Of a stretch of DNA of 64,000 nucleotides, positions 17,501-59,291 are shown piece after piece. Source of the stretch: Lachnospiraceae bacterium (lineage in GTDB: Bacteria; Bacillota; Clostridia; Lachnospirales; Lachnospiraceae); NCBI GenBank assembly GCA_022794265.1, contig JAAWEK010000003.1, forward strand, positions 372,001-436,000, read 5' to 3'. Each line of letters begins with the position of its first letter. Positions within the stretch are counted from its first letter, which is position 1. The position numbers and the translations under genes were made by a program. The notes beneath the pieces are model-generated. The model made no database searches. It was not told the DNA's origin and saw only the letters and a list, made by a program, of their open reading frames with translations.

Positions 17501-17989
17501 CAAATCTGCATTATCAATCATTTCTTTGGTAACTTCATTTGCCTGACACACAGTAACAATAATTTTTCCGTCATCAATGGATTCATCTAAGACATTTTTC
17601 CTAAATGTGTCATTCAGAACATTATCACGAACAGAATAATAACAGCTTCCATCTCCGCTTCCACTTTTTTGCAGCTCATATCCTGTTGCATTTCTGAAAT
17701 CCTGAATGTCAATATCTCCATGATAATTTTCAATCTGTTCTTTTGTAATAGGCTCATAACCGGAAATCGTATAGCCAATCACCTGCTGACCATACTCGGC
17801 TACAATTTCAAGAACTTTTACTTCCTGCTTTAATTGTACTTTTCCGTTTTTGTCCTTTTGAAACACATCTGCTTTTGTGCCAATGTTGAAATGTGCAATA
17901 ACAATTATGGCAGCAATCACTACAAGGAATGCAGCAATTATAGCAGACACTTTTTTCTTGTTGTGCATAACATAATTTCTTAATGCCAT
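11567..17989 (-). CDS. Giant membrane-anchored surface protein, candidate type IV pilus tip/adhesin
   Basis: Function is unknown. The 2140 residues begin with a basic stretch and one membrane helix (about residues 14-32, VSAIIAAFLVVIAAIIVIAHF) without a lipobox or class III pilin motif, so most of the protein should lie outside the cell. Alpha/beta-looking segments (residues 40-130) precede an acidic Ser/Glu/Pro/Thr linker at about residues 498-600 built on a 13-residue repeat. Many beta-rich segments follow. Two of the last domains contain Asp-rich loops of calcium-site type, notably DMDEDNQYNPDKD near residue 2030. There is no LPXTG or other visible C-terminal anchor. GGAGG precedes the ATG. 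It is the last gene of the pilus locus, 57 bases after the last minor pilin, so a PilY1-like role is a positional inference. I recall a Lachnospiraceae family labelled DUF5057 with similar sequence but cannot confirm it. Confidence 0.75.
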   Translation of the reverse strand: MALRNYVMHNKKKVSAIIAAFLVVIAAIIVIAHFNIGTKADVFQKDKNGKVQLKQEVKVLEIVAEYGQQVIGYTISGYEPITKEQIENYHGDIDIQDFRNATGYELQKSGSGDGSCYYSVRDNVLNDTFRKNVLDESIDDGKIIVTVCQANEVTKEMIDNADLVYLNSNNYNDNLFYYYDQIVNNGEKGVAPGETGAAYSDNKIISSLKKDVAIHKIQRAAGRKNVADTLTEKEFAVAGIQNFHSYNFNAYINEISVREKGSLSAATDEDFLDLMRRLIEKVDKAEEGQLPLINTFVGRQDLTEEEIILLTNALLKAPISNYYKANNNEYIDSITKNTRPYSNFKSIESMMNTLNAKKQTEAYNNLKSYKASGGSMDQDLTVLGNDIIKLEYNYNELNLDLLMDYAAAFADESFHFTNASNKTTVISDIQSLINQVNEKKRQEALQLIADAPGNSDSMMLLQENPTFYFELAGIEGYDKYNAEIYLEALAALEDKDALKGNGETSDDKETSDEVTVAETSDMETTEPMTDDETTDSEPENTDQEETSGSDGESESSEESSTSDGEPESSEEPSTSDREPESSEEPSTSDGEPESSEEPDTSGEIIDTYNYDYDKIKEFIETVNAENLYTDEELPYDISWENALELYNYAIVDEKGLMYDTQLLTSGVLGDFTQNLESNTNNLYKILLLMRQLQPEYCINSVLPKIDVDGVFETDTNEKVSAWYKYTFYQEGSKDYSRFREPNVVGQTYSAAGVSGNIRNYVYKHIYSYTGDQFFGGELFVGSSLEEFLKEGGVISSGVKDYVKSTAGRITEEIDESETDRLIFLDTTQADGAWANASSAYAYFWKEGTSAYTTTVEMIKLDGQDKKYKVQVPEHVEQVIFKPNKDNWTGQSRNVLLSEGICFYKKSGSRVDTLGNKMSFGCLTNSKQNGMVYYSDELNLEFKACNAGAATYQVNGGAVQSIRPGEKISIGRDLMDNAVTNITLRYDNITKNYSYKKVTYEYSAENVIKDGEVQYYKTADIGFVFSGLEDVKYSIDSGREQTLSSGQVISIGEGIEEGTRTVLTVTYRAGGNSCTRKYYLLKVSKDEIELASNFLSFYTADNTSSLHHDALLDESANKTLSGNKGEVLRYIMGISLNYLASYPFNVLEIQPAASVTVWDSYEGALKLAEYLKVEPPAEMTKDNYKDYFNVTHMSVREFNTRNEDLTGTYDLIYFGIDSGYQVVNEYTVEDTKIYRTKYNDTSMNGLVYTGIGDKYEIQSFLKGTASDDYILNGGTIANPNQSKEYNYWKDHMTDQFKGNLNPAWNLNLDAGGTWLLNRQSSTTRLLGNDITVKKMNELFGYVKAGYPILLPEEIYNCDTDLYIDFDGNRTNAAKWRYLDVNSKMYYFITTIKSLGYNESTNEFDGLDEKGNPIFTDGKTYPGIVREIYAKDGKNPDNLQADQKFNGGLSYATKRNVQVEFSVLKTPQEYDKDTNGNPIAPGNQGTRIPTGTQTYSYELKIESDISIEWVSSNYEYQIYLDKSGSGRFDDSTTIELDPAHRYDEKERKVILEGRWPGDMDGFMPWKVVAYNKNNPENHFVYNGFSAFEIPKEKKKTVYVLWIRSAWTGNGALTLDFSEMMRRYKDDITEYDIKMLALEYRQFELLYERYGSNLPTGDQEWNAGNSAFRFATLISHGAYLVPGFSSMTEQEMKDNPEMDMIVFGFSDSHSKLDFQNIEGQRNIQYFVNSGHSILFAHDNVSYQSTMNYYTDLNGGTNPVNLSYNPVFARYNTAFFRKMLGMDVYGATYSGECFDEGSEEYLEYLANTRKYLRDDVSQKDFRGIIETCVFRYTQDNVGNRLYSETLHGTNAQSINDWQRTNTVRRINQGQISEYPYIIGEYLPTASTHTQYMNLNMEDDDITVWYTLSCDTSQAMNQENSKYYMYTEGDGSNNYYIYSKGNITYTGAGHSKGTTGTEEKLFVNTVIAALKAGNFAPEVTFPDADKSGDGSKNIVYRYEETEDGVTIAWRPIDYDESRGSKVFTDHKIYIDMDEDNQYNPDKDILLYDGNPDPNTDRSHTKVIDPATGNLVSILANELENRETYSFKLTNDTIKEIVEGNLQLTSIYDKPIAVQITDNGTDKDPGNKRTVSNTVWIVEAKLNNLN
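16200..16355 (-). repeat. 39-base in-frame tandem repeat in the giant surface protein
   Basis: Four consecutive 39-base units start at 16200, 16239, 16278 and 16317. They encode variants of SSEEPSTSDGEPE; the unit at 16317 and the one at 16200 are the most diverged. Because 39 is a multiple of three, copy-number change would lengthen or shorten the acidic linker without a frameshift. The repeat is flanked on the N-terminal side by about 55 further residues of non-repetitive Thr/Ser/Glu/Asp-rich sequence. Confidence 0.9.
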
Positions 17990-18046: not shown

Positions 18047-18661
18047 TTATTTGTTACGAATCATATATATTTTTTCGGAATTTATTTTTTGACTCTTAAC
18101 AACATAAGCTGTAGTTATTTTTACCATATTCGAAGATGCACGTATGGTATTTTCATCTTCTTCCAAATCAGTAGTCGATTCCTCTTCTGACTCTTCCTCA
18201 GATTCCGATTCTTCTTCTGATGGTGTGGTTTCAAACTCTGTATCTAAAAATTCAACTCTGAATTCCGACATACAGTTTGTAATCAAATGATCTGCAATAT
18301 CGTCATTATATATATCGCTTTCTTCATTATATACGGCAAATTGATTTGTACTTTTATCATAATATAATATTTGATTTCCGGTATACAATATTCTGATATC
18401 ACCATTATCTGTATATTTTGTCTCTTCCACACTGCCGGTAATAACCACATCTTCAATATAATTGTTTGCCAGCTGCATCTCTTTCTGAACCCTCGTCTTC
18501 TGATTGGCAGCTTCATAACTTCTCGTTCCAACCGACATAAAAGAATACACAGCCAATATTACCATACTGGCAATTGCCAGACCGATAATCATTTCGATTA
18601 AGGTAAATGCCCGATTATCTTTTATAATTCTCTGATTATGGGTTGTTTTCATTGCTTTCAT
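18047..18661 (-). CDS. Minor prepilin (GspJ/PilW-like) with Ala at -1
   Basis: This is a type IV prepilin-like protein of 204 residues. A basic leader ends in DNRA, followed by FTLIEMIIGLAIASMVILAVY, a typical pilin N-terminal helix with Glu at mature position 5. The residue before the cleavage site is Ala, not the usual Gly, confirmed from the codons. The C-terminal domain contains a Glu/Ser-rich acidic loop (about residues 142-170) similar in composition to the linker of the giant protein downstream. AAGGAGG stands about 10 bases before the ATG. With its three neighbours it could form the pilus-tip initiation complex, by analogy with GspH-I-J-K. Confidence 0.85.
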   Translation of the reverse strand: MKAMKTTHNQRIIKDNRAFTLIEMIIGLAIASMVILAVYSFMSVGTRSYEAANQKTRVQKEMQLANNYIEDVVITGSVEETKYTDNGDIRILYTGNQILYYDKSTNQFAVYNEESDIYNDDIADHLITNCMSEFRVEFLDTEFETTPSEEESESEEESEEESTTDLEEDENTIRASSNMVKITTAYVVKSQKINSEKIYMIRNK

Positions 18662-18676
18662 AGTTTCACATCCTCC

Positions 18677-19228
18677 TTAATCAATGTAATGGCGTCCTGT
18701 CGGTATAACAAGTTTAATTACCTTTTTTCTTTCCGCTTTCGAAATATTAATCCGTACAATATTTATCTTTGTAGCATCGGGCTTTATAACCTCTGCACGT
18801 GTATAGCTTCCATTGGATTTGGAACACTGTATTTCTATCATACATCCATCTTCAATGGTTACATCATTTCCTGCCCCATCAGAACCGCTTACTTTTGCGC
18901 CCTTCAATTTTTCGGATTGCAATACTTTCCAACTGTCTTCTGTAACAGAGCCATCCTCATTAACAATTACTGCCTTTTCCAAAATCTCAACCTTACAAAT
19001 GTTAGTTCCGTCCGGCTCTATCCGCAGCATATATTCATTCCCTTTCGATAATGTCTTGCTGCGTAAGGAAGACAACGCAGAATCAATATTTTCTGCAGCC
19101 GACTCCACATCTGCCTTTTGAATCATCCAGTATAAATTCACACTAATCAATACCACAATGCCCATAACAGCAATAGTTACAACTAATTCAATTAATGAAA
19201 AACCTTTATTCTTATCAGCTTCATTCAT
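18677..19228 (-). CDS. Minor prepilin (GspH/FimT-like)
   Basis: A 183-residue prepilin with the short leader MNEADKNKG cut before FSLIELVVTIAVMGIVVLIS; Glu5 is present. The region after the helix (SAAENIDSALSSLRSKTLSKG) resembles the GspH pattern in which the helix leads into a beta-sandwich. There are no cysteines in the leader and no second membrane helix; two or three cysteines occur later. The start has GAGG upstream. It lies between the GspK-like and GspJ-like genes, and the gaps on both sides are 15-30 bases, indicating one operon. Confidence 0.85.
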   Translation of the reverse strand: MNEADKNKGFSLIELVVTIAVMGIVVLISVNLYWMIQKADVESAAENIDSALSSLRSKTLSKGNEYMLRIEPDGTNICKVEILEKAVIVNEDGSVTEDSWKVLQSEKLKGAKVSGSDGAGNDVTIEDGCMIEIQCSKSNGSYTRAEVIKPDATKINIVRINISKAERKKVIKLVIPTGRHYID

Positions 19229-19258
19229 ATCGCATTCCTCACTCTCTAATTAAATTAG

Positions 19259-21772
19259 TTAGTTCTTTCTCCAATTTTCAATGGTGATTAATTTTTGATA
19301 ATCCGTGTTGGAAGTCTTTATTTCACTGCTGTCACCAGAACCGGAACTAAATCCGAATAACTGGCTCAAATACTCATCATAGGTTGCTAAAAACTTTACC
19401 AATTCAGGACATGCTGTAACTGTAACACCAGTATCAATCGTTAAATTACCTCCACACAAAATAAGTCCTGTAAAATCGTGTTTTATTCTAACATCGCCAG
19501 AAGCAATAATAACTCCATATTCTCTCTCGGTGTCTAATACCTCTCCACCATCCCCTTCATTTGCATTATTCATCATAGTCACACCTAAATTAATCTCATC
19601 AACACCTTTACCAAAAACACGCTGGCAAAATTCTTCTCCTATCTCCCTGGGTACTTTATCACTTTTTTGTACATTTTGTGATTCCGGCCGTTTATTTCCC
19701 ACTGTTTTACAAATCTCATCTAATAGTTCTTCATTCACAAAATGCCCATACAACGAATCCTTTGATGCCTCACTTATTTTTGTCAGATCGCCATAAGCCT
19801 CGTTAAATTCAATTAATTCAGAAGAAATAGACTCATATCGGTATTTCATCTCTTCCATTAAATGGAGAAAACCGGCATCTACTACTCCATTGGTTACACC
19901 ATTTTCTGACCGTATATCCGAAATCACGCCATTTGTAATTTCCGTTATCGCACCTACACTGTAAATATTATAATTTTCATGCTCCAATTTTAAATTCTGT
20001 ACACCCAGACTTTTCACCTGTGCTTCAACTGTCGGTCTGACAAAAGAACTTTTCATCCGCTCAATAAAATAATTTGTCTGCCATACCGGGTCATTGCTAT
20101 ATTTATAGAAATATACACTGTTTTTAACTCTTTTTGCAACAATCTGCGATTCATCAATTCCCAATGCCGAATAATCCAACGTATCACTATCTTTATTAAC
20201 ATACTTTTTTATAAAATCATAATCAACCGGATTGGTCTGAATTATTCTGACAGAATCGTTACCCAAATCTACAATATCTGCTTTATACAAATTCTGATTT
20301 CCTTTAAAAGAAACTGACTCACCTGTCATATAGGTAGAATTTCCAGCTGATTCACTAGTTTCCAAATCAATATAAGCACGGCCCCCCAAAATAACCATAT
20401 CATTTGGTTTTGCAGGTGATAATATTACATCTGCATTTTTACCGTTCACCATAATGGCACTTCTGTCTTCATGGTCATATGTAACATCATTCAACAATAA
20501 ATTGCTTTCATCAAATATGGTTCTGTCTGAACCGTTTGCTTCTACATTTTTATTTGATAAAGATGGTACATATCCGTATCCAAAATAATTTCCATTAATT
20601 CTCACTGTGCTGTTATCACCATTGATTTCTAAATCGTCCGCAATAATACAGTCACCATTTACATTTAAATTACTTATATATCCGTCAGTAATAAGATTAT
20701 TTGCCCATAAATGCATTCCTGAAGCTAGACTGTCTGAATCCAGCAATCCATACTCTACTAAATTTACATCATTCCTCTGGGTCAGTCTGTTAAAATTGGC
20801 TTCTGCATTTTCTATTACTACAGAACCTGCGCAAATAAAGTTCTTTGCATTTACATTCACAACCAAACCGGAATTATTAATATTTACCGAATCCTTCTTT
20901 GTTACAGAATTGGTTCCTACATATGCATTTCCAATAATATTAACATTCGTTTCTGATGGTGTGATAGAAAACGATGGAGTTGATCTATCATTTAATCTGT
21001 TTCTTGTTATTTCAGGTAAATCTTTTTCTTTAACCAAATCCCTGTCTATTTTCTTCTGTAATGTTTCATATCCGTCTACCACCAACGCAAACTTATACAA
21101 TTCACTGGAATTATCCGAACCGGTATCTGCAAATTTCAAATTGATATCCGGCAACGCTACTACAAAATCCGTAGTAACAGAAACATAAAATCCGCTGGCA
21201 GTCCGACTGCTGACCTTAATATCTTTAAATTTTATTTTCTGTTCTGTTTCGTCACAGAATACATCTGTTAAACAGGTAACTCCGTCACTGTCATAGACAG
21301 GTTCCACATTGAAAGTAACCTTGTTTACTGCACCAATATAGTCTTTTAATATGCTCAGTTTATCTTCAATAGAGCGCTCCCCGCCGGTTTCCGGATTTTC
21401 AATATATTTATTTTTCAAATCCTCCAGATACCGTCGGTCAAATGCAGCTTCTGCATCTTCACCGTTTAATGTAACAAAACGATTTTCTTCATTTCTGCTC
21501 ACCACATTGGACAGAACATGCTGATAGGCTTCCGACACAGCTGCCATTGCCTCAACACCGATTCCAGCATATATTTCATCAACTGCTTTTTCAACATAAT
21601 AAAAATTTCTCTTTGACGAATTGTCAGCAAGTTTCATTTGATAATTTGCAGCTGTAATATTCAAAATTAATGTTCCCAGTATTCCAAGCAATAGAATACC
21701 AATCACTACTACACCAAGAGTATTACCTTTATTATTGATTTTTTTTCTAAACAATCTGTACATCATTTTCAT
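19259..21772 (-). CDS. Large GspK/PilX-like prepilin-like protein with beta-helix region
   Basis: The 837-residue protein begins with a basic leader ending NNKG, then NTLGVVVIGILLLGILGTLI, a pilin-like hydrophobic helix lacking the Glu at position 5. A FYYVEKAVDEIYAGI segment follows, as in PilX/GspK proteins, where the helix continues toward FYAAEAG. The middle (about residues 290-480) has repeated short strands such as ISNLNVNGDCIIADDLEING and VRINGNYFGYG, suggesting a bactofilin-like beta-helix. A similar block recurs near residue 770 (VIIASGDVRIKHDFTGLILC). Its start overlaps the stop of the upstream prepilin by 4 bases (ATGA). Lack of Glu5 and large size are features of GspK, which caps the pseudopilus, so tip location is inferred. 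Confidence 0.8.
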   Translation of the reverse strand: MKMMYRLFRKKINNKGNTLGVVVIGILLLGILGTLILNITAANYQMKLADNSSKRNFYYVEKAVDEIYAGIGVEAMAAVSEAYQHVLSNVVSRNEENRFVTLNGEDAEAAFDRRYLEDLKNKYIENPETGGERSIEDKLSILKDYIGAVNKVTFNVEPVYDSDGVTCLTDVFCDETEQKIKFKDIKVSSRTASGFYVSVTTDFVVALPDINLKFADTGSDNSSELYKFALVVDGYETLQKKIDRDLVKEKDLPEITRNRLNDRSTPSFSITPSETNVNIIGNAYVGTNSVTKKDSVNINNSGLVVNVNAKNFICAGSVVIENAEANFNRLTQRNDVNLVEYGLLDSDSLASGMHLWANNLITDGYISNLNVNGDCIIADDLEINGDNSTVRINGNYFGYGYVPSLSNKNVEANGSDRTIFDESNLLLNDVTYDHEDRSAIMVNGKNADVILSPAKPNDMVILGGRAYIDLETSESAGNSTYMTGESVSFKGNQNLYKADIVDLGNDSVRIIQTNPVDYDFIKKYVNKDSDTLDYSALGIDESQIVAKRVKNSVYFYKYSNDPVWQTNYFIERMKSSFVRPTVEAQVKSLGVQNLKLEHENYNIYSVGAITEITNGVISDIRSENGVTNGVVDAGFLHLMEEMKYRYESISSELIEFNEAYGDLTKISEASKDSLYGHFVNEELLDEICKTVGNKRPESQNVQKSDKVPREIGEEFCQRVFGKGVDEINLGVTMMNNANEGDGGEVLDTEREYGVIIASGDVRIKHDFTGLILCGGNLTIDTGVTVTACPELVKFLATYDEYLSQLFGFSSGSGDSSEIKTSNTDYQKLITIENWRKN

Positions 21773-22848
21773 TCCGTATCCCCCTTGTCACTGATATTCT
21801 TTGTAGAATTAATGGTTGCAACAATATCTTCATTATATTTTACTACAATCTTCATATTATACAAGGTATCCTTCTGTGTCATGAAAACAAGATTTTCCTT
21901 TCCTTCCGGACTAACATTTGTATATATGCATGTAGTTGTCGTTTCATATATCTTTTCATCATCTACTAATACTGTATTCTGTAATGCATCTAAAGAGATT
22001 TCTTCTGAAGGATTTCCATCGTCATCCACAGATTTAAATACTATATTTGAAGGATTCAAATGAAAACCACCCTCTTCCTGTGATGCAAGATAAACATTTA
22101 TCTTCTGCTGTTCTCCCTTTTCATCCTGTAAATTGCCGGGACTTATGTTATTTTCAATAATCAGTTCATCATTATCTGACATTGGGGTATAAATTAAATA
22201 TATTTCCGGCTTTATATCCGTAAAGCTCAATGGATTAAAATCTTTTGCCAATATCTGAACACCATTAATATCACAATACTTGACAGATAATCTGACATCA
22301 TATGCTTCTGATCCGCTTCTCTTGCTTATGGTTATCGTACATTCCCTGTGTTCCGCACTGGTACCGGTAGTCAAACGATCCATGGAATAAAAATTAGTCA
22401 TAAATACTGCCATTTCCTCATCGTCTGCATTTTTTATTTGTGGCGTTTTTTCCTCATTAACATCAGCCGCAACCCCCGGTTCCCTACTTGGCTCTAACGT
22501 TACTTCTGCACTGTAAGCCTCATTATAAGAACCCGGCAAGTCTTCATTATTTAATGTAAAACTATATCCCCTGCCAATGTTGAATCCATCTTCATCCAAA
22601 ACATCAAACGGATTATAGGAATATCCGTCATCACCAGTCAGTTTCCTAAAATCCGTAGCTTTAAATTCTTCAGCAAGCAACTGACCAATATCAGTTGCTT
22701 CCTGTTTTCTTTTTGAGGCTGCATTTTGATTATTTGCAACTAAAAAACTGCTTAAGAAGGGAGCTACTACAAATGCAAGTATTGCCACACTTAAAATCAA
22801 CTCGATAAGCGTAAATCCCTTGTTTTCATTTTTAATCTTCCATTTCAT
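21769..22848 (-). CDS. Minor prepilin (GspI/PilV-like)
   Basis: A 359-residue prepilin with leader MKWKIKNENKG cut before FTLIELILSVAILAFVVAPFL; Glu5 is present. The C-terminal part is long for a minor pilin and is rich in Asp, Glu and Asn. Its early region (SKRKQEATDIGQLLAEEFKATDF) recalls the PilV/GspI pattern of a helix running into Ala/Glu-rich sequence. GGGAG precedes the ATG, and the gene overlaps the GspK-like gene by 4 bases, which points to co-translation of two tip subunits. Confidence 0.85.
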   Translation of the reverse strand: MKWKIKNENKGFTLIELILSVAILAFVVAPFLSSFLVANNQNAASKRKQEATDIGQLLAEEFKATDFRKLTGDDGYSYNPFDVLDEDGFNIGRGYSFTLNNEDLPGSYNEAYSAEVTLEPSREPGVAADVNEEKTPQIKNADDEEMAVFMTNFYSMDRLTTGTSAEHRECTITISKRSGSEAYDVRLSVKYCDINGVQILAKDFNPLSFTDIKPEIYLIYTPMSDNDELIIENNISPGNLQDEKGEQQKINVYLASQEEGGFHLNPSNIVFKSVDDDGNPSEEISLDALQNTVLVDDEKIYETTTTCIYTNVSPEGKENLVFMTQKDTLYNMKIVVKYNEDIVATINSTKNISDKGDTE

Positions 22849-22875
22849 GAATAGTTATCTCCCTTCTTGAAAATC

Positions 22876-23589
22876 TTACTGCGGTGTATTGTCATTAGAA
22901 CCCAGATCAGTAAAGAAAATATTGTTGATTCCCTGATTATATAGCGGGATCTCGGTAATGGACTCCGTTCTGTCTTTACTGCTGATAGCATATTCCATAA
23001 CGTTTAAATTACAGGAAACCGTATGTAAAGTAGGATCAAAAGCAAAAGACAGACTGACAGGCACTCTTCGTTTCGCCTGATCCGACATAATCTGTTTTAT
23101 ATAATCTTTCGTCTTACTATATGTACCAGTGACCTGTATCGTATAGTTTTTTACTGATGCCATCATCTCATAAGACATCTGATCTTTACTGTTCACCTTG
23201 CCATCCTTTTTCTCGGTTCCAAAAACCCAGGATATCTTTGGTTCTGACATAGAAAGGGAAGTAAAAGAGAGTCCAACCTGGCTTGCTATATTATGGCAGT
23301 CCATGATAATACGTTTGGCTGATAACCCTGCATCAAACTTTGACAGAATGGTATCATATTTTTCCTCTACTTCTTTTTTCTTCTTTTGATATTCTCCACG
23401 CTTTGATTCTTTTGATTTCAAATCATTATAACGTGTTTCCAAAGATGAAATCTCATCCTTAATATCCGATATATCTGTCTGGTACTTGGAATAACCCATA
23501 AAGTAGGATAAAACAAGAGCTGCAACACCTATCAAAATCAGTATATACTTCATATTCTGCTGTAATGCACTATTTTTCGTTTCCTCCAT
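22876..23589 (-). CDS. pilO: Type IV pilus assembly protein PilO-like
   Basis: PilO links the inner-membrane PilM-PilN platform to the rest of the pilus machine. The 237 residues have one membrane helix at about residues 14-30 (YILILIGVAALVLSYFMGY). A coiled coil runs from about residue 34 to 80 (Lys/Glu-rich, ISDIKDEISSLETRYNDLKS), followed by a ferredoxin-like C-terminal domain. The gene starts 3 bases after the PilM-PilN fusion, with GGAGG inside the end of that gene. The assignment rests on layout and position; the sequence is weakly conserved. Confidence 0.8.
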   Translation of the reverse strand: MEETKNSALQQNMKYILILIGVAALVLSYFMGYSKYQTDISDIKDEISSLETRYNDLKSKESKRGEYQKKKKEVEEKYDTILSKFDAGLSAKRIIMDCHNIASQVGLSFTSLSMSEPKISWVFGTEKKDGKVNSKDQMSYEMMASVKNYTIQVTGTYSKTKDYIKQIMSDQAKRRVPVSLSFAFDPTLHTVSCNLNVMEYAISSKDRTESITEIPLYNQGINNIFFTDLGSNDNTPQ

Positions 23590-23592
23590 GGC

Positions 23593-25191
23593 TTAATCCT
23601 CCTCTTTCTTTGTTGTTGTCTCGGATTCCGATTCTGCTTCTGCCGCCTCAATACTGAAATCTGTCATAAATGTTACTTTGCAGGAAAAATTAACCGTATT
23701 TTCTGCGTTTTCTGCCACGCTCGTTACCACTACACTTACTACATTTTTATGATTTTCTAAATTTTCTACAAGAGAAGCAACTTCCGGTTTATATACACAA
23801 ACTCCATTTATATTCGCAACACCGTTTGAAATACTCATGGAAGCAATTTTCATATCTTTCGGCATTATCTTCTCAAGATAATTAATAAAATCCCATGCAT
23901 ACTCTGTATCATTTACAGTAGACAGATAAAAATTATTCATATCTGTATAATTATCAATAGATACATTATATGCCTTGATTAAATCCTCAATATCTTTTAT
24001 TTTACCGATATTTTCTTCCAGTTCATCTCTGTCACTCTCCAGTCCCTTGTATTTAAACATTGGGAAAAGTGTCAGCGCTGCGGCAGCAATAATCAGAACA
24101 ACCCCAAACAGCATATACGATGTGTCATTGGTACTGGATTTTTTTGTTGTAACCAGTGTAGTCTTTGGTTGGAAATTAATAGGATCAAGAGAGGCTCCAA
24201 TATTAGCCATATACTGTTTTAACAAAGAATTGGAAAGTTTGATCCTGTTATAAGATTCAACATTCTTTAATAAGGTCAGAGATTCTGACGGAAGACTGGT
24301 CTCATTGGAAAACAGCTTATCAATTCCAAGCACATCGGCGCCTTCACCGATAATTACCAGTTTCTGCAGTGGTTTATCTGTATTTCGTCCGGAATAATAC
24401 TCAATCACACGATTTACATTACTAATCAGATATTTCAATGATGCCGTCATATCATCAGCATCCAAAGAATCCCCTACCATTTTTGCCTGTGATAAAAGCT
24501 CCATGGCTGCTTTTGCTGACATCTTCTTAGAATCCATAACTGCATTCAGAAGAAGTGATTCACCATAAGGAATGGTTCTCTGCAGCTGAAGAATATTTTC
24601 ATTCATAACGGACACGATTGTTGTATCCATACCAAGCTGTACCACCAGCGTCGGCTTCGCATCAATCTGTATCTTAACCAGCTGCAACGTACTGTTACCA
24701 GCATAATCTACTGCTTTCACCTTTGTTCCCATTACCTTGGCAAGACTGTAATAGCTGTCAACCATTGCCTCCGGCGCAGCAAATACCAATACCCTGGACT
24801 TATTTTCCTCTTTTGTTTTCTTCTGCTCTAATACAGTATAAGATAATACATAATCATCAATATTAACAGGAAAATACTCAGAAGCGTTCATATTAATCAG
24901 TTCCTGAAGTTTTTCCTTCTTTGCCATAGGCAGAACAACTTCTTTCGTTGCCACCCTTGAAGAGTTAATAACGAATGTAACTTCATTTGCCAGCACCTGT
25001 TCTTCCATCATAGCCTTTTTAATGGTTTCAGATACAAGAGTAATATCCTTAACAAATCCATCCTCAACTGCGTCTGGCGGTGTCTGTATTGAAACTGCAT
25101 GATGAACATATACCGTATTCTTTGATTTCTGCATTTCACAGATTTTGATAAATTCATTTCCAATTTCAATGGTTAGTGATTTAGCTGCCAT
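23593..25191 (-). CDS. pilM: PilM-PilN fusion protein of the type IV pilus inner-membrane platform
   Basis: The frame extends to 25266, but the ATG at 25191 (MAAKSLTIEIGNEFIKICEM) has GGGAGG 7 bases upstream and matches PilM starts, giving 532 residues. Residues 1 to about 340 form the actin-like PilM domain, with IEIGNEFIKICE and VIIGEGADVLGIDKLF as phosphate and adenosine segments. A membrane helix at about residues 357-380 (YMLFGVVLIIAAAALTLFPMF) is followed by a coiled coil and a PilN-like domain ending in an acidic tail. In most bacteria PilM and PilN are separate proteins; here the conserved contact between the PilN N-terminus and PilM is replaced by covalent fusion. It is followed by pilO in the usual M-N-O order. 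Confidence 0.85.
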   Translation of the reverse strand: MAAKSLTIEIGNEFIKICEMQKSKNTVYVHHAVSIQTPPDAVEDGFVKDITLVSETIKKAMMEEQVLANEVTFVINSSRVATKEVVLPMAKKEKLQELINMNASEYFPVNIDDYVLSYTVLEQKKTKEENKSRVLVFAAPEAMVDSYYSLAKVMGTKVKAVDYAGNSTLQLVKIQIDAKPTLVVQLGMDTTIVSVMNENILQLQRTIPYGESLLLNAVMDSKKMSAKAAMELLSQAKMVGDSLDADDMTASLKYLISNVNRVIEYYSGRNTDKPLQKLVIIGEGADVLGIDKLFSNETSLPSESLTLLKNVESYNRIKLSNSLLKQYMANIGASLDPINFQPKTTLVTTKKSSTNDTSYMLFGVVLIIAAAALTLFPMFKYKGLESDRDELEENIGKIKDIEDLIKAYNVSIDNYTDMNNFYLSTVNDTEYAWDFINYLEKIMPKDMKIASMSISNGVANINGVCVYKPEVASLVENLENHKNVVSVVVTSVAENAENTVNFSCKVTFMTDFSIEAAEAESESETTTKKEED

Positions 25192-25217
25192 TTCATAGCC
25201 TCCCTTAACTAGTTTTG

Positions 25218-25976
25218 TTATTTCACAAACATACTTAAATACCAGGAAACCAACTGGTCTCCACATACCATGGATATATAGATTCCCATGGATAAGTATG
25301 GTCCGAATGCCAGAATTCTGTCCTTATCCTTGACTTTCATTAAAATCAGATGGATAACAGAACCAAGTAAACATCCAATACCCAATGATAAGATGATCAG
25401 CTTCCATCCTATCAGCAGTCCGGCCACGGCCATCAGCTTAATGTCTCCGCCGCCGATTCCTCTTCCATTGGTAATAACATATAATAAATATAAAAAACCA
25501 CTTACTGCAAAAAAGCCGATGACATATGTCTGCCAATGTCCCATATCAGTAAGTAATCTTATAATGCCTATAATACCGATGAAGATATTAAAGGCCACTG
25601 GAATTTCATAGATTCTCCAGTCAATGACACTAAGTGCCAGCAATGCGGAGGTGCATAAGCAATACAGAATCGTTGTAAGATTGAAACCATTTACAATTAC
25701 AAGAACTGCATACCCAATTCCATTGAACGCTTCAACCAAGGGATACTGTGCTGAAAGCTTTGTACCACAATATCTGCATTTTCCTCCTAAAAACAGAAAA
25801 CTCACAAGTGGTACTAAATCGTACCACTTGAGATGTTCTCCACAGGACATACAATGAGAGCGGGTTACAATTATACTCTCTTTCTTCGGAATTCTGTAGA
25901 TACAGACATTCAAGAAACTTCCTATAATAATACCATATATAGTTGTGATTATAATGTAAAATAATTCTGCTGTCAT
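25218..25976 (-). CDS. pilD: Prepilin peptidase (PilD/ComC family)
   Basis: This membrane aspartyl protease removes prepilin leaders and N-methylates the new terminus in the bifunctional family. It has 252 residues with about seven to eight hydrophobic helices. The N-terminal cytoplasmic loop holds two CxxC pairs (C42/C45 and C67/C70), the zinc site of the methylating members. The two catalytic aspartates lie in SVIDWRIYEIP near residue 120 and in the GGGDIKLM motif near residue 175. It sits between the pilins and pilM, and is the only such peptidase in the window, so it probably serves all six prepilin-like substrates. Confidence 0.95.
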   Translation of the reverse strand: MTAELFYIIITTIYGIIIGSFLNVCIYRIPKKESIIVTRSHCMSCGEHLKWYDLVPLVSFLFLGGKCRYCGTKLSAQYPLVEAFNGIGYAVLVIVNGFNLTTILYCLCTSALLALSVIDWRIYEIPVAFNIFIGIIGIIRLLTDMGHWQTYVIGFFAVSGFLYLLYVITNGRGIGGGDIKLMAVAGLLIGWKLIILSLGIGCLLGSVIHLILMKVKDKDRILAFGPYLSMGIYISMVCGDQLVSWYLSMFVK

Positions 25977-26008
25977 TGTATTTATCCTTTATCATTTTAA
26001 ATTTCGAA

Positions 26009-26503
26009 TTAATTATTAGCCTTAACTTTAACAGTTACTTTATAACTGTTATTCATAGCTTCAATTTCTACTGCAAAATGTTTGTTTTCCTGTTTGCATG
26101 GTACACTTGGTGTTGATGTGTCTGCACCTGTCATATTAGCTTCCAAACCTTCGAATACTTTATATTCCCAAGAAAGTTTGGAATCATCAGCTTTACCAGC
26201 TACTACAATCTCATCAACAGTTGTATAAGATTCTATATCAGTAGCCATTGAAGTTACTACATCATTGTCAACCGTTGTATCAGCAGCATCTGCAGCATCA
26301 TGACTTCCTGCTGTAGAATAGTCAGACAATGCGGTATTGATTACACTTTTAATTGTATCAGCATTACTTGCATCTGTCTTTTTCTTAGAGCTACCGATAT
26401 ACTGAGTTAAGTTTGGTGCGATTACTGCTACTAATACTGCCATAATAGCAATAACGATAATAAGTTCGATTAATGAGAAACCTTTGTTGTTCATTTTTTT
26501 CAT
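26009..26503 (-). CDS. pilA: Major type IV pilin candidate
   Basis: A 164-residue prepilin with leader MKKMNNKG cut before FSLIELIIVIAIMAVLVAVIAP; Glu5 is present. The segment after the helix is Ser/Asn/Ala-rich (SSKKKTDASNADTIKSVINT). The globular part has an Ala/Asp-rich stretch (about residues 78-95) and only one cysteine, so no disulfide-bounded D-loop is visible. AGGAGATG stands upstream of the ATG. It has its own 88-base leader gap, the longest among the pilins. Short leader, strong ribosome binding site and size favour this as the major subunit, but the 152-residue neighbour is an equal candidate by sequence. Confidence 0.88.
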   Translation of the reverse strand: MKKMNNKGFSLIELIIVIAIMAVLVAVIAPNLTQYIGSSKKKTDASNADTIKSVINTALSDYSTAGSHDAADAADTTVDNDVVTSMATDIESYTTVDEIVVAGKADDSKLSWEYKVFEGLEANMTGADTSTPSVPCKQENKHFAVEIEAMNNSYKVTVKVKANN

Positions 26504-26591
26504 GTTTCCACATCTCCTTTTTTAATATTTATTTTATATAAATCAGGAAAAAATAGGTATGTATTCTCCCGATATATATCAAAACCTTTAA

Positions 26592-27050
26592 TCAACTGCC
26601 TGACCAGTTATTCAGTTCTTCCTCATTGCTTTTTACACATAAACAATTCACTTTATATAATGTTCCTGTTTCATCAATAATTACCTGTATATAAAAGTTA
26701 TACCCTTTTCTTTTACACTGAAATTCATTCTGTCCTAACATAGAAGCAACCTTTTCTTTAAATTGACCAGTTACATCTACATCACTAACCAATTTGTCTA
26801 CAAGAAGAATTCTTTCATTATAGTTATCCACAATATTACGTGCCACATCTTTTGACTCATTATCAGCCAACGCTTCCTGAACAATGTATGTAACCGTATT
26901 CTCTATCTCCTTAGCATTAGATATATCTGTACGTTTCTTCGCACTGCCTATGTATGAGCTTAAAGCTGGCGCCATAACAGCCACTAAAACGGCCATGATA
27001 GCAATTACTATAATTAACTCAATTAATGAAAATCCTTCATTACTCTTCAT
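26592..27050 (-). CDS. Second type IV pilin, paralogue of the adjacent pilin
   Basis: A 152-residue prepilin with leader MKSNEG cut before FSLIELIIVIAIMAVLVAVMAP. Its first 45 residues are nearly the same as in the neighbouring pilin (YIGSAKKRTD against YIGSSKKKTD), while the C-terminal two-thirds differ. This is the pattern of a tandem duplication followed by diversification of the exposed part. It carries two cysteines in the C-terminal half (CKRKGYNFYIQ and NCLCVKS), absent from the neighbour. AGGAG lies just upstream of the ATG. It follows pilC by 69 bases. Confidence 0.88.
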   Translation of the reverse strand: MKSNEGFSLIELIIVIAIMAVLVAVMAPALSSYIGSAKKRTDISNAKEIENTVTYIVQEALADNESKDVARNIVDNYNERILLVDKLVSDVDVTGQFKEKVASMLGQNEFQCKRKGYNFYIQVIIDETGTLYKVNCLCVKSNEEELNNWSGS

Positions 27051-54428: not shown

Positions 54429-55370
54429 CTAATTATCCAAATGCACCACCAGCTGATTAAAGGGAATTTCAATTCCTTTTTCATCAAAAATTTTTTTAAT
54501 CCCCTCAGTCAAATCAAACTTAACAGTCCAGTAATCGGACGTCTGACACCAAACCCGAAGTCCCAGCGTTACCTGGCTGGAATCCAGATTGCTGACAAAG
54601 GAAAATATTTCTTCTTCTTTCAATATCAGTGAGTGATTGTTTGCAAGGTTTTCCATTTCCATCTTTGCTACCGAAATATCTGCAGAATAGCTGATGCCTA
54701 CTTCAATATCTACCCGTCTTTTTTCAAAAGCAGAGGCATTGGTAAGACTGCTGTTTGACAGATTTCCATTGGGAATCACAACTTTTTTATTATCTGGTGT
54801 AATCAGCGTGGTATAACAGATATCTATCTGCTGAACAGTTCCTTCCCTTCCGGTTCCGCTTTCCGAAATATAATCTCCTACCTTAAAAGGCTTCATCAGA
54901 AGTATCAGCACACCGCCGGCAAAATTGGATAAACTGCCCTGAAATGCCAAACCCAGAGCCAGACCTGCCGAACCAATAACAGCTATAAACGATGTCGTCT
55001 CAATTCCCAGCTGACCGCATATAGTAATTGCAAGAATCACAAATAAGATTGTTTTGATTAAAGAAAGTAAAAATTTCTTTACACTGATTTCCATATTTGC
55101 TTTATCAAAAAACTTATTACATATTTTTAATAAACATCGTATCAGTATTTTTCCAAATCCAAATATTACTATGGCAATCAGGATATTGATTCCGAAATTA
55201 ATAATGGAAGGTACCATATTTTCCAAATGGTCCAAAAACTGATTGGCCTTTTCAACCGTTTCCTTTAATGATTCACCAATGACTTCTGTGGCCGGCTCCG
55301 TGGCCCCATCCACAGAAGTCTCTGCTATATCGGCTGCTGCCTTTATAATTCTATCCGCCAGCATTATCAA
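54429..55370 (-). CDS. mscS: Small-conductance mechanosensitive channel MscS family
   Basis: MscS channels open under membrane tension and release solutes during osmotic downshift. The 313 residues probably start at TTG (55370), 8 bases after AAAGGA; an ATG two codons later is possible. Helices lie at about residues 53-75, 98-118 and the pore helix TM3 near 125-155 (GSAGLALGLAFQGSLSNFAGG), with its Gly/Ala packing. The beta-domain has FKVGDYIS and TLITPDNKKVVIPNGNLSNSSLTN. The vestibule ends in a region with LGLRVWCQTSDYW. Normal length. Confidence 0.95.
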   Translation of the reverse strand: MIMLADRIIKAAADIAETSVDGATEPATEVIGESLKETVEKANQFLDHLENMVPSIINFGINILIAIVIFGFGKILIRCLLKICNKFFDKANMEISVKKFLLSLIKTILFVILAITICGQLGIETTSFIAVIGSAGLALGLAFQGSLSNFAGGVLILLMKPFKVGDYISESGTGREGTVQQIDICYTTLITPDNKKVVIPNGNLSNSSLTNASAFEKRRVDIEVGISYSADISVAKMEMENLANNHSLILKEEEIFSFVSNLDSSQVTLGLRVWCQTSDYWTVKFDLTEGIKKIFDEKGIEIPFNQLVVHLDN

Positions 55371-55412: not shown

Positions 55413-57977
55413 TTATTTTGATTCTGATTTTGGCTTTGTATCCGGTTTCTTTGTTTCTTTATCCGGTTCTGCCTTTCCGTTTTCTGTCTTCTGTTCTTCT
55501 GCTTTCTTCACTTCTGTTATTTTTTTCGCAGTCTCTTCTTTTTTTGATACAGACTCATTTTTTTCAGCGGTTACTTTCTTTTTTGCCGTTGTTTTCTTTT
55601 CCGTAATATTTTCTTTCTTCGCTGTTGCCTTTTCTGCGGTTTCTTTCTTTTCTGCAGATTTTACTTTGGAAACTGTTTTTTCTTTCACTGCCTCCTTGGA
55701 AGCTGTCTGTTTTTTTGCCGCATTTGCCTTGGCCTCTTTATTTCCTGCCAGCTTTTCATCTGCCTTGGAAAATTTAAAAATTGCAACGCTTAACCCCGGA
55801 ACATTGACGCGAACGGATTCCTCTCTGCCGTCACACTCATCAGTCTTAGACTGTTTCAGTCTCGGATTGGTAAATCCGTTGCCTCCAAAGGCAGTATTGT
55901 CGGAATTAAAAATTTCCTTATATTTTCCTCTTTTCGGAACCCCAATCTTATAATCGCTCCGGTCAACCGCATCAAAGTTACAGACCACCAAAAGCATATC
56001 ATCTTCTTTAACGTTTTTCTTATCATAATTAATACCTTTTCGAACAAATGTAAGTATACTTTCTCTTGCCGAAATATTATTAATCCATTCAAATCCTTCA
56101 CTGTCATTATCCAGTTCATAGAGCGACGGCTCGCTTACATAGATTTCATTTAATTTCTTTACACATTCATTAATCTGTTTGTGTTTATCCGTATTCAGAA
56201 GTTCCGGACTGAACTGTCCGTCCGGTTTCCACTCACCATACTCAGCCAGATCCTGTCCCATGAACAGCATCTTTTTACCCGGATGTACCATAGCATAAGC
56301 AAGGGCAAGTCTCATATTGGCAAACTTTCTCTCCTCGGTATCTCCCGTCATTCTTCCAATCAGAGAGGATTGTCCGTTGATAAATTCTACGCTTGGGAAC
56401 CCTACAATAAAATCATCGCTATACTGATAAATCATGCTTAACGATAATTCATTGTAATGTCCTTCCCGGAGATATGGCGGAACCCCGAGATAATTCAGAA
56501 AGTCTTTTCTCCATTCCTCATTCCATTTTAAATCAAATCCTAAGCAATCCTCATCCACAATACCCGTCATTTTCGGATAGCCGGAATTATCTTCGGCAAT
56601 GGTAATCACACCTTTTTCTACTTTATGAATAATGGAATTAAAATGTTTGATAAACTCGATGGCCTCCAGATTTTCATTTCCTCCATAGATATTCGGTATC
56701 CATTCTCCCGGCTTTCTGTCATAATCCAGATACAGCATAGCGGCTACTTTTGCCATTTTTAAACCGTCCGCATGATACTTCCGAATCCACATAAATGCAT
56801 TTCCAATCAGATAGCTGGTAACCTCCGGTCTGGCATAGTTAAACATATAGGTTCCCGTTCTCGGATTGATTCCCTTCTTCGGGTCCATATGTTCATAGAG
56901 ACCGGAACCGTCAAATCCTCTCATTCCGCTCTCATCCGATGCAAACTGATACGGTGTAAAATCAAAAATAACGCCAATTCCATGGGTATGCATATAATCC
57001 ACAAATGCCATCAGTCCTTCTGCATTACCATATCTGGCTGTTGGAGCATAAAAATTAGTGGTATCATATCCCAGAGAGGCATCGTTGGTATATTCCGAAA
57101 CCGGCATCAACTGAATATGAGTATATTTCATTTGTTTCACATAATCCGCAATATCCCTGGCTGCCTGTTCATACTGAATGATTCCGTCCTTTGCAAAATT
57201 GCCGAGATAAATTTCATAGATATTCAACGGCATGGAAGAAACATCCTGTTTTCCCCGTTTCGTCATCCATTCCTTATCATTCCACTGATATCCGCTGCCA
57301 GACTCCATGGCCGCAGATACCACCGATGCATCTCCCGGCTGTTGCTCCATAGCAAACGCATAAGGGTCTGTCTTTAAAAGATTTTCACCGCCCTTTTTCT
57401 TTATTTCATATTTATACAAAGAGCCGGCTCCGGCTTCCGGAACAAAGATTGTAAAAATCCCCGTATCCTCCACTCTGTTCATCTGGTGAACCCTTCCGTC
57501 CCAATGATTGAAATCGCCTACTACACTGACACGAACTGCATACGGCGCCCATACTGCAAATCTCACACCTTCTACTCCGTTTATTTTCATCGGATGAGCT
57601 CCCAGAACTGTATAGGCATCATATCCGATACCAGCATTAAACTTTTTGATTTCCTTCATCGGCAAATTTGGATCAAATGCATAGGCATCGTATCGCTCAA
57701 TCTTTTCTTCTCCATATGTGACGGCAAGTTTATAATTCAATTCTTTTTTTCCGTCAATCAGTACCGCATAAAAACCTGCTTCATCCATTTTCTGCATTTC
57801 ATAATACTTCCCTCCGGTTTTTACTTCAGCTTTGTCAGCACCCGGTAGAAATGCCTGTATCAAAACCCCATGTTCTGTCACGGTCTGTCCCAGAACATCC
57901 GACGGATTATCGATATCCGTATACTCAATTCCCTCAATAACCGGCCAGTTCATCATTCCATACAGTAATTCGCTCAT
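55413..57977 (-). CDS. GlgB-like GH13 protein with lost catalytic residues and Lys-rich tail
   Basis: Overall this is a 1,4-alpha-glucan branching enzyme homologue: CBM48-type N-terminus (VLGAHPMKINGVEGVRFAVWAP), then a GH8/13 barrel collinear with E. coli GlgB. The catalytic set is broken. Region I reads DFTPYQF (His replaced by Gln, near residue 339). Region II reads GLKMAKVAAMLYLDY where enzymes have GLRVDAVASMLY (nucleophile Asp replaced by Ala, near 407). Region IV reads GFPSVEF in place of LSHDEV (His and Asp replaced, near 526). Only the general acid/base Glu in TIAED near 458 is kept. The last 115 residues (739-854) are a Lys/Ala/Glu-rich low-complexity tail. The start at 57977 (MSELLYGMMNW) fits the family; a GTG at 58013 is also open. 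A binding or regulatory role is inferred; branching activity is unlikely. Confidence 0.85.
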   Translation of the reverse strand: MSELLYGMMNWPVIEGIEYTDIDNPSDVLGQTVTEHGVLIQAFLPGADKAEVKTGGKYYEMQKMDEAGFYAVLIDGKKELNYKLAVTYGEEKIERYDAYAFDPNLPMKEIKKFNAGIGYDAYTVLGAHPMKINGVEGVRFAVWAPYAVRVSVVGDFNHWDGRVHQMNRVEDTGIFTIFVPEAGAGSLYKYEIKKKGGENLLKTDPYAFAMEQQPGDASVVSAAMESGSGYQWNDKEWMTKRGKQDVSSMPLNIYEIYLGNFAKDGIIQYEQAARDIADYVKQMKYTHIQLMPVSEYTNDASLGYDTTNFYAPTARYGNAEGLMAFVDYMHTHGIGVIFDFTPYQFASDESGMRGFDGSGLYEHMDPKKGINPRTGTYMFNYARPEVTSYLIGNAFMWIRKYHADGLKMAKVAAMLYLDYDRKPGEWIPNIYGGNENLEAIEFIKHFNSIIHKVEKGVITIAEDNSGYPKMTGIVDEDCLGFDLKWNEEWRKDFLNYLGVPPYLREGHYNELSLSMIYQYSDDFIVGFPSVEFINGQSSLIGRMTGDTEERKFANMRLALAYAMVHPGKKMLFMGQDLAEYGEWKPDGQFSPELLNTDKHKQINECVKKLNEIYVSEPSLYELDNDSEGFEWINNISARESILTFVRKGINYDKKNVKEDDMLLVVCNFDAVDRSDYKIGVPKRGKYKEIFNSDNTAFGGNGFTNPRLKQSKTDECDGREESVRVNVPGLSVAIFKFSKADEKLAGNKEAKANAAKKQTASKEAVKEKTVSKVKSAEKKETAEKATAKKENITEKKTTAKKKVTAEKNESVSKKEETAKKITEVKKAEEQKTENGKAEPDKETKKPDTKPKSESK

Positions 57978-58333: not shown

Positions 58334-58415
58334 TCTTCAATAGATTATAAAAAATTTGGAAACTCATAGGTTTCATAATTCCAGAATATATGCACTATGG
58401 AAAGGATGCAAAACA

Positions 58416-59291
58416 TTGATTAACGAAATTTATTTATTAATTAAAGGATTCCTGAATCAGACAAAGAAAGACAGTGTCAGCGCCTTCTCTGCCCAGGCTG
58501 CATTTTTTCTTATTTTATCCGTCGTTCCGTTTTTTTCTCTTCTGCTGACACTGGTACAGTTTCTTCCAGTAAATAAAGCAGAAATTCTCACCACTGTGGT
58601 GGATATCATGCCTTCTGCATTTGAGCCGGTTGTTTCCACCATTATTGACGAATTATTTAATCAGAGTACCGGTGCCGTAATTTCCATTTCCGCTTTAATT
58701 GCCTTATGGTCTGCGGGAAAAGGAGTAATGGCCATCATCAGAGGTCTGAATTCCGTCTATCATGTAACGGAAAAGAGAAATTATTTTGTTCTGAGAATCG
58801 TATCCGCAGTCTACACCATCTTATTTATTTTTGCACTGGTGTTATCACTGCTGCTACTGGTATTCAGCAATTCCATTTATAATTTTTTAAAAAAACATAT
58901 ACCCGTCATTGCCGAATTTACCAACATATTTTTTAACCATAAGATTATTCTTTCCCTTGGAATATTAATCATTGTTTTTATCTTTATTTACCGTCTGGTA
59001 CAGGATACCCATTCAGATTCGGCATTATTTGTCGTACCCGGAGCATTGATTTCTTCCGTCTCCTGGGTTGTATTTTCCTATGCCTTTTCTCTATATATTG
59101 ATAAATTCAGCGACTTTTCATACACATATGGAAGTCTTTCAACCATTGTAATTGCCATGCTCTGGATTTATATCTGTATGTATATTCTATTTATTGGTGC
59201 AGAAATCAACCAGTATTTCCGTCTCCATTTTAAAATGGCTTATAAATATTTCAGGAAACGCAGGAAAAAAAAACAACCCATTCAAAAATAA
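58416..59291 (+). CDS. YihY/BrkB family integral membrane protein
   Basis: A 291-residue membrane protein of the YihY/UPF0761 family, whose function is not settled despite the old label ribonuclease BN. The TTG at 58416 (INEIYLLIKGFLNQ) has AAAGGATG 7 bases upstream and is preferred to the TTG at 58356. Six helices are visible: about residues 26-50 (AAFFLILSVVPFFSLLLTLVQ), 85-105, 120-145, 175-195, 207-228 and 245-265. The family motifs SAFSAQAAFFLILSVVPF and SLSTIVIAMLWIYICMYILFIGAEIN are conserved. The C-terminus is strongly basic (RKRRKKKQPIQK), so it lies inside. It converges on the SpoIID gene with an 11-base gap. Confidence 0.92.
   Translation: MINEIYLLIKGFLNQTKKDSVSAFSAQAAFFLILSVVPFFSLLLTLVQFLPVNKAEILTTVVDIMPSAFEPVVSTIIDELFNQSTGAVISISALIALWSAGKGVMAIIRGLNSVYHVTEKRNYFVLRIVSAVYTILFIFALVLSLLLLVFSNSIYNFLKKHIPVIAEFTNIFFNHKIILSLGILIIVFIFIYRLVQDTHSDSALFVVPGALISSVSWVVFSYAFSLYIDKFSDFSYTYGSLSTIVIAMLWIYICMYILFIGAEINQYFRLHFKMAYKYFRKRRKKKQPIQK

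Follow-up and report, generated by a model that had tools for sequence, protein, structure and literature searches.

A long GlgB paralogue of Lachnospiraceae with a dismantled active site, very probably non-catalytic but maintained by selection

Introduction

What keeps a branching enzyme in a genome once its active site has gone? The question is raised by a gene in a 64,000-nucleotide stretch of DNA from a Lachnospiraceae bacterium (GenBank assembly GCA_022794265.1, contig JAAWEK010000003.1; the whole stretch is called the window, and positions are counted from its first letter). The gene encodes a homologue of the branching enzyme GlgB, here called the window protein, which an initial annotation had described as lacking its catalytic residues. 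We find that it is very probably non-catalytic but selected, and that it belongs to a long GlgB paralogue of the family in which the active site was lost more than once. As an explanation of the whole, we favour a pseudo-branching-enzyme acting as a glucan-bound scaffold, to which we assign a probability of about one half.

Results

Residues are numbered after E. coli GlgB (from NC_000913) unless they are given as residues of the window protein. At positions 300, 335, 340, 403, 405, 458, 525 and 526, E. coli reads Y D H R D E H D and the window protein Y D Q K A E S V. The catalytic triad (Asp405, Glu458, Asp526) thus reads A, E and V, with Glu458 alone left, and the supporting residues His340, Arg403 and His525 have become Q, K and S. 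The gene and its altered codons are as follows.

55413..57977, minus strand: degenerate glgB, an open frame of 854 aa (stop included)
56946..56948, minus strand: His340 replaced by Gln344
56757..56759, minus strand: Arg403 replaced by Lys407
56751..56753, minus strand: nucleophile Asp405 replaced by Ala409
56592..56594, minus strand: Glu458 kept as Glu462
56388..56393, minus strand: His525-Asp526 replaced by Ser529-Val530

The alignment to E. coli GlgB agrees with the initial annotation, which had read Ala for the nucleophile, Val and Ser for Asp526 and His525, Gln for the region I His, and Glu458 as the one survivor. That annotation had also considered that the catalytic Asp residues might have shifted to neighbouring positions; the alignment shows no such shift, and no relocated carboxylate was found in the stretches around the lost catalytic positions, where no acidic residue has moved in. 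Compared with active GlgBs (E. coli NC_000913; Cyanothece, 5gqu; Vibrio vulnificus, 9u77), the window protein retains one of the three triad residues and has lost a large part of the conserved barrel set, and its Ala at the nucleophile position matches the 6klf chain titled 'D434A mutant'. In the clade of close relatives around the window protein (the query clade), 53 of the columns that intact long relatives keep at 97% invariance or more have either changed or dropped below 50%, among them N290, H292, W298, Q301, R315, G339, A406, H487 and W586. Several of these barrel columns presumably line the cleft. We infer that branching activity is absent.

Could the protein still be an enzyme, with residual or altered activity from an unusual residue set? 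Glu458, Asp335 and Tyr300 are present, and there is a precedent for caution in USP53, annotated as inactive, which turned out to be active according to the excerpted text of PMC12037411. However, no two of the 36 distinct degenerate proteins found over all loci agree at all eight residues, no new set is common to them, and many neighbouring barrel columns are lost as well. In MKIP1 (AtBE1), a plant class III branching enzyme with similar losses, restoring the triad did not restore activity, in its authors' words as excerpted from PMC13172542. We consider continued catalysis very improbable.

The rest of the protein retains the GlgB layout. Translation from ATG 57977 gives 854 residues; starting instead at the in-frame GTG 58013, for which AGAAAGGA is better placed, would give 866.

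57681..57938, minus strand: GlgB_N domain, residues 14-99 (PF22019)
57357..57605, minus strand: CBM48, residues 125-207, with Trp159 (PF02922)
56094..57230, minus strand: catalytic-type barrel, residues 250-628, active site dismantled
55770..56087, minus strand: C-terminal all-beta domain, residues 631-736, with Trp631 (E. coli Trp628) and the clade signature (PF02806, Alpha-amylase_C)
55416..55760, minus strand: tail, residues 740-854, rich in Lys, Glu, Ala and Thr, net charge +12

Only a short piece of the barrel (residues 278-341) matches the Pfam Alpha-amylase model. The protein scores above the cut-offs of the NCBIfam branching-enzyme models TIGR01515 and NF008967 and slightly below that of NF003811, its closest solved structures by sequence are GlgB structures, and its domain order and predicted fold are those of GlgB. 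Domains, curated models and fold prediction all identify the window protein as a GlgB, and the expectation of the initial annotation that standard pipelines would misname it is borne out by the two models matched above cut-off. All nine degenerate proteins scanned together matched the same GlgB models.

In our trees, which contained no plant sequences, the window protein nests among Lachnospiraceae GlgBs, inside a clade of long GlgBs (support 99.7/100; FastTree 0.985) that is separate from the short GlgB (L002) and the third GlgB (L003) of its own genome. The layout of this long paralogue is an N domain, CBM48, barrel, C domain and, usually, a Lys-rich tail; the window protein has all of these. 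A tail of at least 40 aa occurs in at least 28 of 36 degenerate, at least 85 of 126 intact long and at least 2 of 76 other GlgBs, the counts being lower bounds since some proteins end at contig or locus edges.

We sampled 160 Lachnospiraceae genomes from 159 genera, taking only full-length matches, so that very divergent copies may be missed. At least 88 of the 160 carry the long GlgB, and 21 of these 88 have changed catalytic residues, or 20 by the triad alone; the difference is L267 (G071), which keeps the whole triad and has Ile at His525 as its only change. The activity of L267 is not predictable from sequence. Over the 36 degenerate proteins, no triad residue is kept in 17, one in 12, two in 6 and three in 1. 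Thirty-one have lost Asp405, and in L271 (G106) positions 525-526 fall in a gap. Outside the long clade, none of 72 fully covered GlgBs departs from YDHRDEHD; the other four of the 76 are fragments or have an unread position, and show no departure where covered.

Mapping the losses on trees, as the initial annotation had suggested, indicates recurrent loss within the long Lachnospiraceae clade. A first tree of 63 rows requires 5 changes of state, 2 of them forced by starred branches, and a second of 61 rows (L080 and L082 excluded) requires 3. On the smaller set, the approximately unbiased (AU) test left three groupings unrejected: all 21 degenerate rows as one clade (p = 0.076), and the query clade joined either with L131, L137 and L176 (p = 0.136) or with L026, L041 and L034 (p = 0.441). 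With the catalytic columns kept, FastTree placed most degenerate rows together and gave four all-degenerate clades. The wider tree comprised 33 degenerate, 38 intact and 6 outgroup rows, without L080, L082 and L271; it was built under a mixture model with the catalytic columns removed, by a quick search with Shimodaira-Hasegawa-like approximate likelihood ratio (SH-aLRT) support only. Here the degenerate label needs 6 changes, all 6 forced by starred branches, and a single origin of the 33 degenerate rows is rejected (p-AU 3.7e-06), with the reservation that the group tested was named after earlier trees had been viewed and that long branches may still mislead. More than one origin is surer than the exact count of six. 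Regain of a whole active site, which the trees cannot separate from loss, is unlikely.

L080 (G016) and L082 (G012) are very divergent long GlgBs with open frames, 34-36% identical to the window protein and of unsure tree position. A candidate case of two degenerate copies in tandem on one G017 contig was withdrawn, no overlap having been found.

The degenerate copy does not stand alone in its genome. The second, intact glgB that the initial annotation had proposed to look for was found twice in the genome of the window, as the short L002 (contig C18) and as L003 (a deeper group, contig C19), both reading YDHRDEHD; the window protein is 43% identical to the short copy over residues 113-698. 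Genes for glgA, glgC and phosphorylase are present in the genome as well. Each of the 28 degenerate genomes examined (15 from the related-genome set, 13 from the family sample) has a further GlgB with intact residues, a count in which the second GlgB of G018 could be read at seven of the eight positions and which excludes eight degenerate proteins known only from neighbourhood loci. In the related-genome set, glgA scores above cut-off in 15 of 15 degenerate genomes.

This coexistence fits a regulatory subunit, that is, a protein that would pair with active GlgB or GlgA and tune branching, as plant isoamylase 2 (ISA2) does with ISA1. At least two GlgB matches occur in 21 of 21 genomes with a degenerate long copy against 54 of 67 with an intact one (Fisher p = 0.033). 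The excerpts of PMC12510319 describe ISA2 as a non-catalytic GH13 glucan-enzyme paralogue kept by selection beside an active one, with catalytic residues including the nucleophile changed; unlike the window protein, it belongs to a debranching family and pairs with ISA1. Simple redundancy would need a second GlgB as well, however, and the Fisher test ignores relatedness and gives p = 0.22 on the first set alone. Bacterial GlgB is not known to work as a hetero-oligomer, and we consider a regulatory subunit improbable.

Is the gene simply decaying behind a frame that has not yet broken? Its barrel is more divergent than in intact relatives, as decay would predict. We examined 60 related genomes plus that of the window (nine matches above 100 bits were not included). 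A degenerate orthologue is present in 9 of 9 same-genus genomes with open frames (that of G007 is cut by the contig end); the other eight copies are 53-62% identical to the window protein, and no two of the nine share a catalytic set. In the two usable degenerate pairs, with dS near 1, the core ratio of non-synonymous to synonymous substitution (dN/dS, Nei-Gojobori) is 0.046 (L012/L013) and 0.073 (L106/L116), and 0.027-0.068 domain by domain. In the remaining degenerate pairs, where dS is at least about 1.9, the ratio is 0.054, 0.101 and 0.070, the second and third values including the tail, and four intact GlgB pairs with finite dS give 0.032-0.048; dS is saturated in most pairs. The orthologues and the low core dN/dS show that the degenerate site is neither an assembly error nor decay, and with a C domain more conserved than in the intact set, a pseudogene caught before its frame breaks has a negligible chance unless saturation distorts dN/dS in every pair. 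The view in the initial annotation that the frame is intact and the protein kept by selection is upheld, and its conclusion that catalysis is gone agrees with the sequence, comparative, evolutionary and fold evidence alike.

What has changed is where conservation falls. Mean pairwise identity in the query clade (15 sequences) and in 15 intact long relatives is 0.56 and 0.41 for the N domain, 0.70 and 0.64 for CBM48, 0.56 and 0.70 for the barrel, and 0.75 and 0.59 for the C domain; the sets are unequal in depth and the intact 15 were hand-picked, so that the pattern is comparable and the values are not. Among columns invariant (at least 95%) in intact relatives, the query clade keeps 11 of 11 in GlgB_N and 34 of 35 in CBM48 but 73 of 153 in the barrel. 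A C-domain signature, KQS[KRQ]xDECDG[RK], is found in 15 of 15 members of the query clade and in none of 77 intact long, 8 other degenerate and 60 other GlgBs. The tail evolves faster (for the two pairs whose dS is close to 1, the ratio of tail dN to core dS is 0.28-0.37) and stays Lys-rich. Judged by these comparisons, the N, CBM48 and C domains now bear the constraint that once lay on the barrel, and the identity pattern together with the C-domain motif is what would be expected if the outer surface rather than the cleft now does the work.

For E. coli GlgB, the excerpts of PMC10254366 list 12 glucan sites, with W159 in site IV (CBM48), W628 in site VI (C domain) and W586 in site I, and all three residues are near-invariant in intact GlgBs. 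Among the degenerate proteins W159 is kept in 35 of 36 and W628 in 36 of 36, and W586 in 17 of 37 rows. Retention of W159 and W628 is consistent with a glucan-bound protein, as support and not as proof.

The neighbourhood is shared with intact copies. We compared the best 80 of 229 loci, a set biased towards the query, with 16 degenerate and 64 intact members, to which the locus counts below refer. The relevant genes are:

54429..55370, minus strand: mscS-type channel gene (Pfam MS_channel domains), 42 bases downstream of the degenerate glgB on the same strand
58356-59291, plus strand: BrkB-family gene, divergent, upstream of the degenerate glgB
L131:5030-5389 and L137:7557-7982: metal-sensitive repressor after glgB

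No terminator-like site was found in the 42-base gap between glgB and the mscS-type gene, and the two are probably co-transcribed. The mscS-type gene comes next at 13 of 16 degenerate and 42 of 64 intact loci. A DUF1015 gene (assigned by Pfam) is present at 7 of 16 and 48 of 64, respectively, a serA-like gene at 8 of 16 and 39 of 64, and a serC-like gene at 8 of 16 and 36 of 64 (the last two named by eye). This sharing makes degenerate and intact copies orthologues by synteny too. At L131 and L137 the metal-sensing repressor takes the place of mscS, an arrangement common to seven intact loci, which lends extra support to a separate origin of their degeneracy. The BrkB-family gene lies upstream of glgB in most same-genus loci, where mscS is retained; in many relatives serC-, serA- and DUF1015-type genes stand there.

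Elsewhere in the window, positions 11567-17989 (minus strand) encode a 2140-residue protein with one DUF5057 match, beside which prepilin-like open frames with GFSLIEL-type starts lie at about 18047-27050.

Discussion

In every genome examined, the losses were accompanied by another copy with its catalytic residues, suggesting that the long paralogue has a second, non-enzymatic job. We propose that a member of this paralogue stopped branching and stayed for that job: the protein would sit on glycogen through an outer glucan-binding surface formed by CBM48 and the C domain, while the basic tail, expected to be disordered, may recruit or tether a partner, so that the whole could have a scaffolding or organising role alongside the active GlgB copies. 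The glucan-binding scaffold taken by itself stands slightly short of an even chance. Several observations weigh against the proposal. Three residues of the catalytic set survive in the window protein; L104/L105 show a higher dN/dS of 0.101 (tail included, dS 1.86); nearly all GlgBs with intact residues have W159 and W628 as well, so that the two may be structural; and intact copies, too, can have the tail and the mscS neighbour, which therefore do not distinguish the new state. In MKIP1, moreover, mutation of the CBM48 tryptophans left function intact, according to the excerpts of PMC13172542.

MKIP1 is the closest precedent, and the excerpts of PMC13172542 describe the following likenesses: the architecture with CBM48, two Asp lost and Glu kept, canonical branching enzymes that stay in the genome, and a charged Lys-rich segment. 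The window protein, too, has lost two catalytic Asp and retains CBM48 and the C domain. The differences are as clear. In the same excerpts MKIP1 acts in plastid intron splicing with MatK, carries a charged region of about 150 residues after the CBM and is about 30% identical to canonical enzymes, whereas the window protein has its charged segment at the C terminus, no such insertion (its CBM48 ends at 207 and the barrel starts near 250) and 43% identity to the short GlgB of its genome. In the long Lachnospiraceae GlgB, unlike MKIP1, loss arose more than once.

The precedent suggests a different role, outside glucan metabolism: a protein-protein platform whose charged segment would bind a partner or a polyanion (nucleic acid or an envelope polymer), perhaps linked to MscS. 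MKIP1 itself needs a Lys/Glu-rich region predicted to be disordered, in the account excerpted from PMC13172542, and the window protein combines the loss of both Asp with a Lys/Glu-rich tail of net charge +12 and, in most degenerate loci, an adjoining mscS. Tail and mscS accompany intact copies too, however, and so may serve an ordinary glycogen function; the tail sequence also drifts fast. We think such a role unlikely. A related idea is that the non-catalytic job of the long GlgB predates the losses and became the sole function in the clade of the window protein, as a counterpart of MKIP1 outside glucan metabolism. An ancestral second job would explain why some six losses of the active site left the protein and its outer domains in place, and often the tail and mscS neighbour as well; we treat it as a tentative alternative, also on the unlikely side.

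How far was an inactive branching enzyme of this kind foreshadowed? Inactive branching enzymes are already known in plants (MKIP1, PMC13172542, in excerpt), and a fused inactive one in some chlamydiae. In the excerpts of PMC11046441 the GlgB domain of a chlamydial glgA-glgB fusion, likewise bacterial, is said to be inactive; unlike that fusion, which occurs in Criblamydiaceae and Waddliaceae with glgC and glgP deleted, the window protein is separate and full-length, with glgA, glgC and phosphorylase genes present. A swine GlgB paper (PMC9960391) deals, in its excerpted part, with an active enzyme. Among open-licence papers we found no report of a catalytically dead GlgB in Lachnospiraceae, nor of a full-length bacterial GlgB paralogue that was inactivated repeatedly, which is what appears to be new here.

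For the family, the finding has consequences both practical and biological. About a quarter of the sampled carrier genomes (21/88) hold a long copy with a changed catalytic set, and since branching-enzyme models match degenerate copies, the numbers of glycogen enzymes reported from gut and rumen data are probably inaccurate. Repeated loss of the site in one paralogue, with an intact copy beside it in each genome examined, amounts to a natural experiment that separates an enzymatic from a non-enzymatic role of GlgB.
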